Below are positions 1 to 7,769 of a stretch of DNA of 33,594 nucleotides, piece by piece. Numbering within the stretch: the stretch's first letter is position 1; each line of letters opens with the position of its first letter. This DNA is from Microcaldota archaeon. Its GTDB lineage: Archaea; Micrarchaeota; Micrarchaeia; Micrarchaeales; CABMGC01. Made by a program: the position numbers and the translations under genes. The stretch spans positions 1-33,594 of the forward strand of contig DAHXKV010000021.1 in assembly GCA_027366155.1 (NCBI GenBank), read 5' to 3'. The notes under the pieces were generated by a model that was not told the origin of the DNA, searched no databases, and saw nothing but the letters and a program-made list of their open reading frames with translations.

Positions 1-2
1 TA

Positions 3-20
3 TAATTCCCGACGGAATTA
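3..20. repeat. Inverted repeat upstream of pilin copy 1
   Basis: The arms TAATTCC and GGAATTA flank the 4-base centre CGAC and form a perfect 7-bp inverted repeat. The counterpart at 1076-1093 has one arm mismatch. It could be a regulatory dyad or the terminator hairpin of a gene ending before the window. The sequence alone does not decide between these. Confidence 0.45.
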
Positions 21-105
21 ACTGAAGATCCCTTCCCACGCAAACATGGCCAGCATTCTTATTCTAATACTGCCACATAAAAACACTGAGTGATTCTGCG
101 CCATA

Positions 106-120
106 CTTATAAGTATAAAC
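106..120 (+). promoter_or_regulatory. TATA region for pilin copy 1
   Basis: The AT-rich stretch CTTATAAGTATAAAC lies about 36 nt before the ATG at 149. No Shine-Dalgarno is visible, so the transcript should be leaderless or have a leader of about 8 nt. The same element recurs before copy 2. Confidence 0.65.
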
Positions 121-148
121 CTTCCCTTTTCATACATACTCAATTTAC

Positions 149-1006
149 ATGGCGGCATTCAAGCTCCAAAGTGCAATGGAATACCTGATGACCTACGGAT
201 GGGCCATACTCATCATTGCGGTTGTTCTTGGGGCTTTGTTTGAATTGGGCTTCTTCAATTCGTCAAGTCTTGCTCCAACGATACCTGCTGGCGCATGCCA
301 GGTATACAGACCTCAAGGCCCCGGAACAACTGCCTTCATAAACACCGAAGGCACCTGCAACGGAGAACTCCCTCAGGATGTGGCAAAGTTTTCAGGAGGC
401 TCGCAGGCAATAACGATTAGCGGCCTTCCCACATCGCCAACATCGCCCAACAACGATGTGACCATAACCTTCTGGATGTACCTGCAAAGAGGTTCGTCTT
501 CAGGAGACGCATTCGGCTTCACCAAACACACCATCCTTTCCCTTCCTTATATAGGCCTCCAGAGCGCATCATCATTCGGTCAGGTGTTCGTGGCAGATTC
601 CTCAACATCAAACCTCTTCGATACATGGAGCTTCATCGCTTTCTCTTACAATGGATCCACTGGCACCGGAACGCTTTACGTAAACGGAGCGCAGGCCGCG
701 ACAGGGGCCGCAACTTACTTCACCCCTAACCAAGCGGCCGCTATAGGCAATAGGGAACCCGGTGGCTCGGTAGGCTTCAATGGGCTTATCTCCAATGTGC
801 AGCTTTACAATTCCACACTCTCGGCAAACCAGATACAGGCGATGTATACAAGTGGCATTGGCGGAGTGCCGATAGTCCTGAACAACCTTGTCGCCTGGTG
901 GCCGCTGAACGGCAATGCAAACGACTATGGCGGAAGCCAGTACAACGGGGCTCCAGGCGGCGTGGTATTCACGACCTCGTGGAAGTCCTCGTACACTGCG
1001 CCTTGA
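149..1006 (+). CDS. Pilin-like surface protein with LamG domain (copy 1)
   Basis: A 285-residue protein. It starts with a short basic segment (FK), then QSAMEYL and a hydrophobic helix (residues 7-35). This looks like an archaeal class III (type IV pilin-like) signal with the conserved Glu at +5 if cleavage falls before Gln7. Residues 85-270 look like a LamG/concanavalin-A-like jelly roll: TITFWMYL, WSFIAFSYNGS, TLYVNGAQ, the GFNGLISNVQLYNSTLS signature, and a closing VAWWPLNGNANDYG. Such domains often bind glycans or protein partners, so an exposed adhesive subunit is likely; this is inference. An identical architecture follows at 1229. Prepilin peptidase processing cannot be confirmed here, and a simple N-terminal membrane anchor is the alternative. 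Confidence 0.85.
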   Translation: MAAFKLQSAMEYLMTYGWAILIIAVVLGALFELGFFNSSSLAPTIPAGACQVYRPQGPGTTAFINTEGTCNGELPQDVAKFSGGSQAITISGLPTSPTSPNNDVTITFWMYLQRGSSSGDAFGFTKHTILSLPYIGLQSASSFGQVFVADSSTSNLFDTWSFIAFSYNGSTGTGTLYVNGAQAATGAATYFTPNQAAAIGNREPGGSVGFNGLISNVQLYNSTLSANQIQAMYTSGIGGVPIVLNNLVAWWPLNGNANDYGGSQYNGAPGGVVFTTSWKSSYTAP

Positions 1007-1007
1007 C

Positions 1008-1019
1008 CTGCAGCTGCAG
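1008..1019. repeat. Perfect 12-bp palindrome after pilin copy 1
   Basis: CTGCAGCTGCAG lies 2 nt after the stop codon. A wider CACTGC (994-999) / GCAGTG (1016-1021) pairing overlaps the stop. It may act as a weak transcript-end structure. No counterpart follows copy 2, which has a different hairpin. Confidence 0.35.
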
Positions 1020-1185
1020 TGCGACATTCAAGCAGGTCTTGCATGCTCCACATCACACCCGGATGAATTCGCTCATAATTCCCGACGAAATTAACTGAAG
1101 ATCCCTTCCCACGCAAACATGGCCAGCATTCTTATTCTAATACTGCCACATAAAAACACTGAGGATTCCGCGCCGTCGCACCATA

Positions 1186-1200
1186 CTTATAATTATAAAC
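1186..1200 (+). promoter_or_regulatory. TATA region for pilin copy 2
   Basis: CTTATAATTATAAAC is the counterpart of the element at 106-120, with one base changed, at a similar distance from the ATG at 1229. No Shine-Dalgarno is visible. The spacer 1007-1228 holds this promoter region and no other gene that I can support. Confidence 0.65.
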
Positions 1201-1228
1201 CTTTCCTTTTCATATATACTCGATTTAC

Positions 1229-2074
1229 ATGGCGACATTCAAGCTCCAAAGTGCAATGGAGTATCTGATGACGTATGGGTGGGCTATCCTGATAATAGCG
1301 GTTGTCCTTGGCGCTCTCTTCGAATTGGGCTTCTTCAATTCGTCAAGTCTTGCCCCAACGATACCTGCTGGCGCATGCCAGGTATACAGGCCTCAGGGCC
1401 CCGGAACAACTGCCTTCATAAACACTGAAGGTACCTGCAACGGAGAACTCCCTCAGGATGTGGCAAAGTTTTCAGGAGGCTCGCAGGCAATAACGATTAA
1501 CAGCCTTCCCACGTCGCCAACATCGTCCAACAGCGTGACCATAACCTTCTGGATGTACCTGCAAAGAGGTTCGTCTTCAGGAGGTGCATTCGGCTTCGGC
1601 TCGGGCGCAGGCAATTTCATAGGCCTCCAGAGCGCATCATCATTCGGTCAGGCGGGTGTGGCAGATTCCTCAATATCAAACCTCTTCGATACATGGAGCT
1701 TCATCGCTTTCTCTTACAGTGGATCCACTGGCGCCGGAACGCTTTACGTAAACGGGGCGCAGGCAGCTACAGGTACTGCAACCGGATTCACCCCTAACCC
1801 ACAGGCCGCGATAGGCAATGAGGGATTCGGTGGCTCGGCAGGCTTCAATGGGCTTATCTCCAGTGTGCAGCTCTACAATTCCTCACTCTCGGCAAACCAG
1901 ATACAGGCGATGTATACAAGTGGCATTGGCGGAGTGCCAATAGTCCTGAACAACCTTGTCGCCTGGTGGCAGCTAAACGGCAATGCAAACGACTATGGCG
2001 GAAGCCAATACAACGGGGCTCCAAGCGGCGTGGTATTCACGACCTCGTGGAAGTCATCGTACACTGCGCCTTGA
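1229..2074 (+). CDS. Pilin-like surface protein with LamG domain (copy 2)
   Basis: A 281-residue paralogue of the gene at 149. The pilin-like N-terminus matches except Thr3 for Ala3, and the LamG fold runs through residues 83-266. Differences cluster in probable surface loops: after AFGF, copy 1 has TKHTILSLPY where copy 2 has GSGAGNF, and NREPGGSVGF in copy 1 is NEGFGGSAGF here. The gene has its own TATA region and is followed by a strong hairpin. It probably sits in the membrane or a pilus with its LamG domain outside. The cargo or ligand is unknown. Confidence 0.85.
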   Translation: MATFKLQSAMEYLMTYGWAILIIAVVLGALFELGFFNSSSLAPTIPAGACQVYRPQGPGTTAFINTEGTCNGELPQDVAKFSGGSQAITINSLPTSPTSSNSVTITFWMYLQRGSSSGGAFGFGSGAGNFIGLQSASSFGQAGVADSSISNLFDTWSFIAFSYSGSTGAGTLYVNGAQAATGTATGFTPNPQAAIGNEGFGGSAGFNGLISSVQLYNSSLSANQIQAMYTSGIGGVPIVLNNLVAWWQLNGNANDYGGSQYNGAPSGVVFTTSWKSSYTAP

Positions 2075-2230: not shown

Positions 2231-3736
2231 ATGGGCCTTCTGAGAATACAGAACCTCATGAGCAATGAGCTCGCAAAAAGAACATTTATCACAAGGCCTC
2301 CTGAGCCGCCATACGAATTTCTTCTCAATGATCCTACAAACTCCATATTCGTTGGCATAACCAAGCTGTTCAGCATACCCTTCACTTGGTCATACGCCTC
2401 CCTAACCAACCCGCACATAAGCGTAGTCGGAATAACTGGTTCCGGAAAGAGCTTCTTTGTCAAAACGTTTCTTACAAGAGCCAGCTATGTCTGGAACACG
2501 AATGCCATAATAATCGACTGGGCAGGAGAATATATCTCATGGGTCAGGCAAAGCGGCGGAAAGGTGGTCTCATTCTCGAAAGGAGACTACATGAACATAA
2601 TGGACCTGTCAGGAATGAAGCCAATAGACCGGACGAAACAGGTAATGAACTCGCTAGAGATACTCACTGACATAGGCGAATACCCCGAGCAGCGAAGGCT
2701 TACTGAGGAGGCTGTAGAACAGGCGTATGTCAATGCCGGCTTTGTGCTCTCCATGATTCCTCCTCCAGACAGCGAGGCTCCGACACTGAAGGATGTTGTA
2801 AGCCTACTCGAAGAAAAACAGACTGACGGCACATACGCGTATCCCGCGGAGCTTGAAAATGCAATATACCGCCTCAGGCAGTTCTCAAGGGAAGGCGAGG
2901 ACTACTTCGCAAACAAGAGTACAATAGATGTCGGCAAGCTTGCATCCTCTGGTCTTGTAGATCTGGATCTTTCCAGCCTGCCTGATGAGCGCTTCAGGGC
3001 CCTGGCTGCGCTATTCATACTCCAGACGCTAAAGGAGAAGATGCGCATGGAAAAGTGGAGCCCCAGCGCAGGCCTGCGCACCATAGTAACTCTTGACGAG
3101 GCATGGAAGGTGGCAAGCGACGAGAGAAGCGACGCCGTAACAATAATACGCGAGGGAAGGAAGTACTCATTCGGGCTGATAGTCGCCTCACAGAACCCTA
3201 CCGACATCAATGAGGCCATCTTCTCAAACGTTGGCACGACCATAATGCTTAGGATAAGGTTCGAGCGGTTCATGCAGTACTTACAGGGCTCGCTCAACTT
3301 CTCTGATTTCATACGGTCGGAGATAACCAAGCTTGGCGTAGGGCAGGCTGCAGTCGACATGTCGTTCAATACCTCTGTGAAGTTCCCAAACGTCTTCCTG
3401 CTGGAAAGCGTCGTCGGCGAGCTTCCTCTCGATACTTACACTATAACCCTTACTGAGATACTCCAACCTGCAGAGATGTCCGATCCAAATGTCAAGAAAG
3501 AGTACTCGTTCGACAGAATAACCCTGAACTCCAGGCTTGTGGAGAATGGGCTCAATTCGGATTCAATACTGGGTATATTCAAGAAGATCGGCGACCAGAG
3601 CAGGGTAATAGACATAAAGCAGCTGGTCTCCATGATGTCTGCCGAAGGGGTTGCCAGAGACGCCACAGTCTCCTTCCTGAGGAACATAGGTATCTCCGAT
3701 ACCCTGATATCAAGAATATTCACTTACCAACGATGA
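2231..3736 (+). CDS. HerA/VirB4-like P-loop ATPase with C-terminal helical repeats
   Basis: A 501-residue cytoplasmic ATPase. Walker A is GITGSGKS (67-74), Walker B TIVTLDEA (about 285-292), and a conserved VASQNP segment follows (about 318-323). This order is typical of the HerA/FtsK/VirB4 group (DUF87-like), hexameric motors that move DNA or protein. Residues 432-500 form a separate module of three short motifs beginning GL, GV and GI (Gly440, 473, 487). The next gene repeats this module alone. ATG 2231 is preceded by TTTTAGA at 2203-2209 with no Shine-Dalgarno, consistent with a leaderless start. It heads the six-gene cluster ending at 7769. The substrate is unknown; lack of a Nur nuclease neighbour argues against a DNA-end-resection HerA. 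Confidence 0.85.
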   Translation: MGLLRIQNLMSNELAKRTFITRPPEPPYEFLLNDPTNSIFVGITKLFSIPFTWSYASLTNPHISVVGITGSGKSFFVKTFLTRASYVWNTNAIIIDWAGEYISWVRQSGGKVVSFSKGDYMNIMDLSGMKPIDRTKQVMNSLEILTDIGEYPEQRRLTEEAVEQAYVNAGFVLSMIPPPDSEAPTLKDVVSLLEEKQTDGTYAYPAELENAIYRLRQFSREGEDYFANKSTIDVGKLASSGLVDLDLSSLPDERFRALAALFILQTLKEKMRMEKWSPSAGLRTIVTLDEAWKVASDERSDAVTIIREGRKYSFGLIVASQNPTDINEAIFSNVGTTIMLRIRFERFMQYLQGSLNFSDFIRSEITKLGVGQAAVDMSFNTSVKFPNVFLLESVVGELPLDTYTITLTEILQPAEMSDPNVKKEYSFDRITLNSRLVENGLNSDSILGIFKKIGDQSRVIDIKQLVSMMSAEGVARDATVSFLRNIGISDTLISRIFTYQR

Positions 3737-5372: not shown

Positions 5373-7769
5373 ATGGCACTCTCAAGACTGGCTCTTATGG
5401 GAATTGCATTGGTGCTACTCATAACAATTTCCATTACTGCTATTGTCCTATATACGACAACCGCGGAAAACGCGATACTGGCAAAATACCGCCTGGAACA
5501 AAGTCTCGTGCAGGGCAGGCTCAGCGGCGCAGCGCGGATAACCCATTCAGGTGTACTGAGCTACAACAATTCAAACTACTATGTCGAATACGCCTCCTTC
5601 AACTACCAGTATTCAAACGCGCTATACGAGAACGCCTCGGTCTCTGTCTATGTCTCAAACCCACTCGAAAGGATGTTCTTTGTAAACACGGGCTTCTCCT
5701 GTTTCAGATGCCTGAATGAATCGATGACTTACTCCTACCTAGAAGACTATCTCTACCAATACGGCATAATACTCAACCAGTCAAGCCTGAATTATGTTAA
5801 CTTGAGTGCAGTTCCAAGCCTGCCTGCGAACTCGGTCATCATAATTCCCTCAGGCCTGATTCCCTCCCAGCTGCTTCCTTATTCTGGCACGAGCGGCTCG
5901 TATTCAAATTCCGACATACTCTCCCTTATGCGGAAGGGCGACACTATAATATATGCTGGAGAAAACTTCTCCAGATCAATACAGAACGGGATAAACTACA
6001 TCAGCTCTCCAGAAACCATATCTGCGTTGGGCTCGGCAAGGCTCAACCAGTCTGGCACCAGTGGCTATGTCCCGTCAAACACATTCTATTTCAGGAACCC
6101 CTCGTTCTCATTCACAAACGGTACCTCGTTCGGGCCTATCTCATATACGCGCTATGCCAACGGGACTATTATTGCATTTAGCGGGTATCCTTCTTCAGCA
6201 TGGTCAGGGCCCGAATACCTGGCACACGACATCGCGTTTGCCATCTCAAACAGGTTCTGGATACCGAAAATATCCAGCAGCTACAGATACCTGCTCCCAG
6301 GCGATACTGGCAGCTACGCAATATTCACGACGAAAGTCCCAATCCCCTCGAACTCCTCCGGCTCCCTAATAAATGATACGTATCCGCTTTTGACTATCAG
6401 GGCAACAAACGGTACTTATGCAACCACACAGGAACTGCCATTCTCAGTCAACCTCCGGACGAACGGCACGCTAGGCATGCCAGGCATAGTCCCCGAAGGC
6501 GTCAGCGTGCCCATCTCCATATACATATCAAATACGCAGCTGCAGCAGCTAAACGCCCAGATAGGCAACTTTTCAAAGAATGCGCTTCTCTTCCATCTGG
6601 AGCTGTACAACAGCAACCTTGACTACATTTATTCTGTGCCTATAGGCTTCTTCAATACCTCCCTTGGGGTTGTTATCTACCATTCATTTACTCTTGCTCC
6701 AGGATACTATGTGGTCTCGCTTGCAGACATAAACAGCAAGGTCTACGACAACGCACTCATAGACATCCCGTATTTCACCGTAACCCCGCTAAATGCAGAC
6801 TTCAAAAATGGCACATTCACCCTTGAGGTCACTGATGCAAACACCACTGTCTCCAACATACGCTACACCATCTCGCTCAACGGCCAGTATCCCCAGACGC
6901 AGACGCTAAACAACGGCATAATAAACTATACCCTTCCGCAAGGGACAGCCCTGCCTTATGGTAACCAGACGCTCACTGTCTCGTTACTGGGCGGAAATTA
7001 TTCATACTTCTACTACTATAGCAAGCCTATAACCTCAGGAATACCTCCGATATACATAGAATTTGCAGTAGCCGCAATTGCCATTATCCTATTCAATATA
7101 ATAGCAAAGGCACCAAACAGGGACGATTACTTTATAGACGTGCCTACATTCCCACCGACCAGCAAATTCGAGGTAAAAACCTCCGCCCCATCGATAATAA
7201 ACCTGTTCGATACCATGAACGAGAGGTTCGGGTGGAGCCACATGCCGCTTACAGCCGAAGAGATAAAGCTTGGGATCAGCTCAAACGTCAGGTACAAGAA
7301 CATGCCAATAATGATAACCATGGAAAACACGGCAGAGATACTCTACAAGCTGGCAAACGAGGACAAGCTGGACGTCATCTCTCCCTACTTCATGCCTAAG
7401 AAATGGTCCACAGAGACCCACCATGACATAGAGTATCTTATTGTATTCAGGAAACTCCGCGACTTCTCGGTAAAGAATGCCATACTCTTCACCGAATTGG
7501 ACACGGGCACTGCTGCAGACATGATAATGACGAACAAGGGCAAGCTGCGCTACATCTACATATACTCCAAGGCCTCATCACTAAAGCCCATGCGCGCCGG
7601 GCCCAAGACACAGGCATACATCGCTTTTATAGACAACGAGACAATGATGCAATTCCTAGACAAGCTGTATGTCTCCTACGGCGAAGAGGAGCAGATGCTC
7701 AGGATGGCAATATCCTCCAACAGCATAATGCTCATAAGCACCGAGAATCTGGATCAGCTCCTTTACTGA
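5373..7769 (+). CDS. Large two-helix membrane protein with heavily sequon-rich ectodomain
   Basis: A 798-residue protein. A hydrophobic helix at residues 5-28 anchors the N-terminus. Residues 30-555 form a Ser/Asn/Tyr-rich, beta-type region with 20 N-x-S/T sequons. A second helix lies at about 556-579, followed by a 220-residue soluble domain with only one sequon. This places the middle outside the cell, glycosylated, and the C-terminal domain in the cytoplasm next to the ATPase and coiled-coil protein. GGAAGG (5361-5366) is its Shine-Dalgarno. I recognise no family. A surface receptor or channel-like part of the cluster is a reasonable guess, without a known homologue. Confidence 0.85.
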   Translation: MALSRLALMGIALVLLITISITAIVLYTTTAENAILAKYRLEQSLVQGRLSGAARITHSGVLSYNNSNYYVEYASFNYQYSNALYENASVSVYVSNPLERMFFVNTGFSCFRCLNESMTYSYLEDYLYQYGIILNQSSLNYVNLSAVPSLPANSVIIIPSGLIPSQLLPYSGTSGSYSNSDILSLMRKGDTIIYAGENFSRSIQNGINYISSPETISALGSARLNQSGTSGYVPSNTFYFRNPSFSFTNGTSFGPISYTRYANGTIIAFSGYPSSAWSGPEYLAHDIAFAISNRFWIPKISSSYRYLLPGDTGSYAIFTTKVPIPSNSSGSLINDTYPLLTIRATNGTYATTQELPFSVNLRTNGTLGMPGIVPEGVSVPISIYISNTQLQQLNAQIGNFSKNALLFHLELYNSNLDYIYSVPIGFFNTSLGVVIYHSFTLAPGYYVVSLADINSKVYDNALIDIPYFTVTPLNADFKNGTFTLEVTDANTTVSNIRYTISLNGQYPQTQTLNNGIINYTLPQGTALPYGNQTLTVSLLGGNYSYFYYYSKPITSGIPPIYIEFAVAAIAIILFNIIAKAPNRDDYFIDVPTFPPTSKFEVKTSAPSIINLFDTMNERFGWSHMPLTAEEIKLGISSNVRYKNMPIMITMENTAEILYKLANEDKLDVISPYFMPKKWSTETHHDIEYLIVFRKLRDFSVKNAILFTELDTGTAADMIMTNKGKLRYIYIYSKASSLKPMRAGPKTQAYIAFIDNETMMQFLDKLYVSYGEEEQMLRMAISSNSIMLISTENLDQLLY

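Follow-up and report, generated by a model that had tools for sequence, protein, structure and literature searches.

We concluded that ectopic exchange among paralogues, by gene conversion or crossover, very probably accounts for a block of silent differences between two tandem pilin-like genes, A and B, of a Micrarchaeota archaeon. The helix-coding part of A is identical over 86 bp to a paralogue that is otherwise clearly diverged from it, and comparable tracts recur in related genomes. The window analysed here is the whole of contig DAHXKV010000021.1 (33,594 nucleotides; contig C35 of the home MAG), and its features are collected in Table 1. Gene A encodes an invariant N-terminal helix, a conserved stalk, a LamG/pentraxin-like head and a conserved C-terminus. 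Paralogues on other contigs of the home MAG are named after those contigs.

Table 1. Features of the window, with coordinates counted from its first letter.
Feature	Position	Strand	Remarks
Window, entire contig C35 of home MAG G000			MAG of 778 kb, 61 contigs, 78% complete
Element P upstream of A	1..148	+	TATA-like promoter ~107-120
Gene A	149..1006	+	pilin-like, 285 aa; ORF
Exchanged tract in A, maximum extent	173..258	+	86 bp, codons 9-37; identical to G000:C42:5526-5696(-)
Minimum block in A, codons 11-31	179..241	+	silently different from B
Stalk of A, codons 32-90	242..418	+	near-identical among A, B, C27, C23
LamG-type variable head of A	395..838	+	amino-acid changes concentrated here
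Element P upstream of B	1074..1228	+	~90% identical to 1-148
Gene B	1229..2074	+	tandem paralogue of A, 281 aa; protein 89% identical to A
Equivalent block in B, codons 11-31	1259..1321	+	helix DNA common to C23:12284 (2/86 mismatches)
LamG-type variable head of B	1475..1906	+	amino-acid changes concentrated here

The silent block and its donor sequence

A sequence-only reading had described codons 11-31 of A and B as encoding identical residues while 14 of the 21 codons differ, all silently, and the codon comparison reproduced this exactly (codons 11, 12, 15, 16, 17, 19, 20, 21, 22, 23, 26, 28, 30 and 31). The single change that it counted in codons 1-10 was also found, yet it is non-silent (GCA/ACA, Ala3/Thr3). 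Its figure of about seven changes after the block holds if the count is extended to codon 92, but codons 32-90 contain five, every one silent, leaving the protein unchanged. The block was significantly different from its flanks (Fisher p=5e-7). Outside the helix, the pair is evenly diverged at silent sites, at about 8% (17/211 comparable codons), which makes the block an outlier; the helix, with 14 of 25 codons silently different, stood apart from that remainder (p=4e-8). Among the 1284 within-genome pairs scanned, A and B had the most extreme excess of helix over rest. By the Nei-Gojobori method, dS was saturated in the block (14/17 silent sites) and 0.12 in codons 32-90.

The donor search among paralogues proposed in the same reading succeeded. 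The gene at C42:5526(-), on another contig of the same MAG, matches A at 86 of 86 bases over 173-258, which supports the proposed recombination with a family member of the same helix. C42 and A show no relation upstream of codon 9 and differ by 31% in codons 38-82 (42/135 bases). Over codons 1-82, where 60 of 246 bases mismatch despite the perfect tract, the hypergeometric probability of such a run was 4.6e-14; a global permutation on silent codons, corrected over all pairs, gave p=0.0015, and the pair remained significant after site-rate correction (p=0.0009). Silent sites are few per pair, and only A-C42 and a stalk run between C27 and C23 (codons 31-75) passed the genome-wide test in the home MAG. 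A C17-type source for the C27 helix was considered and was not significant (p=0.61).

Helix mismatches per 86 bases were 0 for A-C42, 15 for A-B, 2 for B-C23 and 9 for C42-C51a, the last being the nearest relative of C42 by stalk, and the 135 bases of codons 38-82 contain 5 mismatches for A-B, 42 for A-C42 and 3 for B-C23. The helix of B is thus of the C23 type, though the upstream regions of C23 and B are unrelated. The quartet A, B, C27 and C23 has nearly the same stalk and three clearly different helix DNAs encoding one peptide. Within this quartet, 8 bases are unique to A in codons 11-31, compared with 2 in codons 32-60, which indicates that the helix of A is the foreign one. C42 itself has retained the tract, and we infer a transfer from a C42-type gene to A. 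The helix ancestor of A and C42 (0/86) is younger than that of C42 and C51a (9/86); therefore, the block itself moved recently. Its left edge lies in codons 9-11, exactly where homology between A and C42 begins, and its right edge in codons 31-37, just ahead of the first variable residues.

Predicted proteins and the tandem array

The head of A is a LamG/concanavalin-like lectin fold according to both profile and predicted structure. The Pfam profile Laminin_G_3 (PF13385) matched residues 83-230 with an E-value of 9e-19, and an AlphaFold2 model built on a 70-sequence alignment (pLDDT 86) contains a helix at residues 9-32 and a jelly roll, the modelled fold resembling pentraxin structures with TM values, normalised by target, of up to 0.69. 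A C-terminal motif, NLVAWWPLNGNANDYSGN..NNG (874-1003 in A, 1942-2071 in B), resembles the usual start of LamG domains, and a circularly permuted head is possible in view of this motif. The earlier term "signal helix" was right in substance, the N-terminus being probably of the class-III pilin type: in QSAMEYL, Gln at +1 and Glu at +5 fit a class III signal peptide by eye, although residue -1 in A is Leu and not the Gly/Ala of such peptides, and signal-peptide Pfam models gave no match in the profile search of A and B. NCBIfam gave no usable name for either protein. The MAG encodes type IV pilus machinery, namely an A24 prepilin peptidase (C21), the assembly ATPase T2SSE (C9, C3) and the platform protein T2SSF (C9). 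Judged from these sequence features, the family of A and B likely comprises type-IV-pilin-like surface proteins of a putative filament.

The home MAG is fragmented and seemingly a short-read assembly, and contig C35 stops inside the pilin array, so that copy number and donor list for this genome are incomplete. Among named relatives, the closest are MAGs of Candidatus Micrarchaeota. The end of C27 (C27:1-141, minus) matches window positions 1-141 exactly, a 141-bp overlap of contig ends. From this overlap, the array order is most likely C27 gene, A, B, with at least three tandem copies and start-to-start spacings of 1059 bp (C27 gene to A) and 1080 bp (A to B). Tandem Repeats Finder reported no repeats, as expected with repeat units longer than 500 bp. 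About 12 family members with the same N-terminus occur in the home genome. The genome G012 (JAJYJW, DBS2-1.bin171), of about 0.8 Mb, has about 50, the first 75 residues of which are nearly identical and yet differ at about 35-70% of silent codons.

Several observations concern the surroundings of these genes. Element P was found before A, B and C51a. At C51:9863 (C51b), a gene for a non-LamG protein has codons 1-10 in common with A and B and resembles them in the stretch just upstream, and leader and promoter DNA may thus also move between unrelated bodies. In C23:13108-13359, a pilin gene is followed by 51 bp of element P and then by an inverted copy of C51:77-210 (99.3%). This foldback represents an inversion or else a chimera of the assembly. 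Directly 3' of the array, window positions 2231-3736 encode an ATPase whose closest matches are the DNA-import ATPases CedD/CedB and conjugation ATPases of the VirB4 type, with every match under the NCBIfam cut-offs; a link between the surface proteins and DNA transfer is possible through this gene. Positions 5373-7769, which separate the ATPase group from the genes that follow, encode a 798-aa protein that has no Pfam or NCBIfam match.

Probable exchange across the family and competing explanations

Significant silent-identity tracts (runs at p<0.001, corrected for site-specific rates) were present in 24 of 1258 diverged within-genome pairs, the 24 coming from nine Micrarchaeota genomes, compared with 1.3 expected under a test that assumes silent differences at separate codons to be independent. 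Nine tracts lie in codons 7-37, nine in codons 38-78 and six beyond codon 240; none lies in the variable head, where comparable codons are few and tracts would escape notice. Tandem neighbours were over-represented among the tract pairs (11/24 versus 82/1269, p=5e-8). In G005, of the same genus, one tandem pair is silent-identical at codons 11-38 and diverged elsewhere (global p=0.004). The segment shared between paralogues varies from pair to pair. In G000, G005 and G012, linkage between silent sites weakens the farther apart they lie (0/1000 permutations for each genome), which is a mark of short-patch exchange. Four-gamete clustering within 40 bp was significant in G000 only; this test gave no information for G005 and G012, whose sites are probably saturated.

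A crossover is preserved in G030, a genome of 952,257 bp in one contig, where three perfectly identical 1974-bp tandem units with chimeric pilin genes occupy C1:583652-591548. The units combine the upstream region and helix of gene 591548 with the body of gene 583652. The two parts meet at codons 32-38, and one more small patch lies at codons 59-62. Unequal crossing-over in this same conserved island would be expected to yield such chimeras.

Other origins of the A-B block were weighed against these results. The sequence-only reading had also offered gene conversion of the flanks, by which A and B would be old, diverged paralogues evened everywhere except in the helix block. Near-identical flanks around a diverged block are likewise predicted by this account, and stalk-wide exchange does happen, as in the homogeneous C27-C23 run; however, it requires two independent events stopping at both edges of one block and leaves unexplained why A equals C42 at 86 of 86 bases while C42 and C51a differ at 9. 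It is thus less economical than recombination with a family member, and we consider it very improbable. An assembly or strain-mixing artefact, in which a chimeric contig gave A a helix that belongs to a different copy or strain, would be in keeping with a fragmented MAG whose contigs break within the array, with the exact 141-bp end overlap of C27 and C35 and with the C23 foldback. We nevertheless hold it to be very improbable, as k-mers of the apparent length of 141 should span a block of 86 bp, and the same kind of pattern occurs in the assemblies of other genomes, alongside the crossover in single-contig G030. A local hotspot of silent mutation, or codon-level selection on the helix (for example, lowering DNA identity between tandem copies), is hardly credible, even though the most protein-constrained segment coincides exactly with the block. 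When 41 paralogues from G012 and 17 from G005 were compared, the helix was not consistently more diverged at silent sites than the neighbouring stalk, the reverse pattern of an identical helix and a diverged remainder is common, and an exact donor is not a product of mutation or selection. Even divergence in an alignment of all paralogues had been named earlier as evidence against a mosaic. The family is indeed roughly even, which excludes an intrinsic hotspot, but the exchange specific to the pair remains.

A dedicated variation system, compatible with ectopic exchange but going beyond it, would use the conserved ends as recombination handles and swap LamG heads behind active promoters. The tracts found only in conserved segments around the variable head, the G030 chimeras with promoter and helix of one gene on the body of another, and a pooled head dN/dS of about 0.95 compared with values near 0 in helix and stalk are consistent with this suggestion. 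Against it, the head ratio (interval 0.62-1.44) is not significantly greater than 1 and accordingly gives no support to positive selection on the head. A diversity-generating retroelement was rejected, since the 78%-complete home genome gave no match to the reverse transcriptase profile RVT_1. Moreover, the family copies are intact open frames and not silent cassettes: among the matches listed in 40 genomes the frames are open and have no internal stops, and the retrieved copies, some fragments excepted (C42:16857, C23 end), are either complete or truncated solely at a contig end. Every observation can be explained by ordinary homologous recombination among old paralogues, and a dedicated system therefore appears unlikely on present analysis.

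Considering ectopic exchange as the origin of the block, we have proposed a probable model. The genes A, B and the C27 copy would form a recent tandem array, while homologous recombination between family members at distant loci, probably by enzymes of the RadA type, would copy short DNA patches. After tandem duplication, a C42-type segment probably overwrote the helix-coding part of A (63-86 bp), beginning at the onset of homology (codon 9) and stopping where homology drops (codons 32-37). Under near-absolute constraint on the helix, donor and recipient, as old paralogues, would have retained the same peptide in different codons; the peptides being identical, the swap is visible only as silent differences. 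Protein constraint would keep alignable DNA islands at helix, stalk and C-terminus and confine exchange to them. Exchange in these islands would presumably re-pair promoters and heads too, and exchange of a similar kind must at times join the promoter of one gene to the body of another, of which G030 is an example. A benefit from such head shuffling can be supposed.

Known systems and biological meaning

In the pilE/pilS system of Neisseria, silent, promoterless or truncated cassettes feed a single expression locus, and exchange among family copies produces pilins with a conserved N-terminus and a variable remainder. The family described here is alike in its conserved N-terminus, variable remainder and exchange among copies. 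Unlike pilE/pilS, it consists of intact genes, and neither a single expression locus nor promoterless silent cassettes were seen. The pilins of another archaeal group are likewise several per genome and share a nearly fully conserved N-terminal hydrophobic domain, needed for assembly, in front of differing mature parts; those pilins were characterised experimentally.

In "ARMAN" Mia14, which resembles the home MAG in its phylum-level group and in its LamG expansion, jelly-roll LamG proteins are expanded, some lie beside type IV pilus loci, and a role in host contact was proposed for them (Golyshina et al., 2017, PMC5498576). That account describes the expansion; silent mosaicism, donor tracts and exchange between copies are described here. 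Ectopic gene conversion is known between archaeal paralogues such as mtrA (PMC4632066), and equalisation of copies was reported in Haloferax volcanii (PMC11276520). In these cases the exchange of homologous sequences within one archaeal genome is non-reciprocal, as it probably is here, but they concern housekeeping duplicates or chromosome copies, whereas the present case is a large family of surface proteins in which conserved islands surround a variable head. The process is therefore of a known kind, and our literature search, thin on subscription journals, found no earlier report of exchange or gene conversion in DPANN pilins.

These results call for caution with trees of these pilins and with short-read assemblies of their arrays, both of which are unreliable. 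Since the helix protein is near-invariant and its DNA variable, exchange is recorded at silent sites with hardly any influence of protein selection, and the large, little-known pilin family of these symbiotic archaea provides a natural assay of ectopic recombination, including tract length, edges and neighbour preference. It is a speculative and rather doubtful suggestion that helix, stalk and C-terminus serve both as assembly parts and as recombination handles re-pairing promoters and fast-changing lectin heads in host-dependent Micrarchaeota, whose arrays reach about 50 genes. If it were true, these archaea would possess a surface-variation system that makes no use of silent cassettes. Should exchange reshuffle heads and promoters too, host-dependent archaea would have in it a route to alter their contact proteins.
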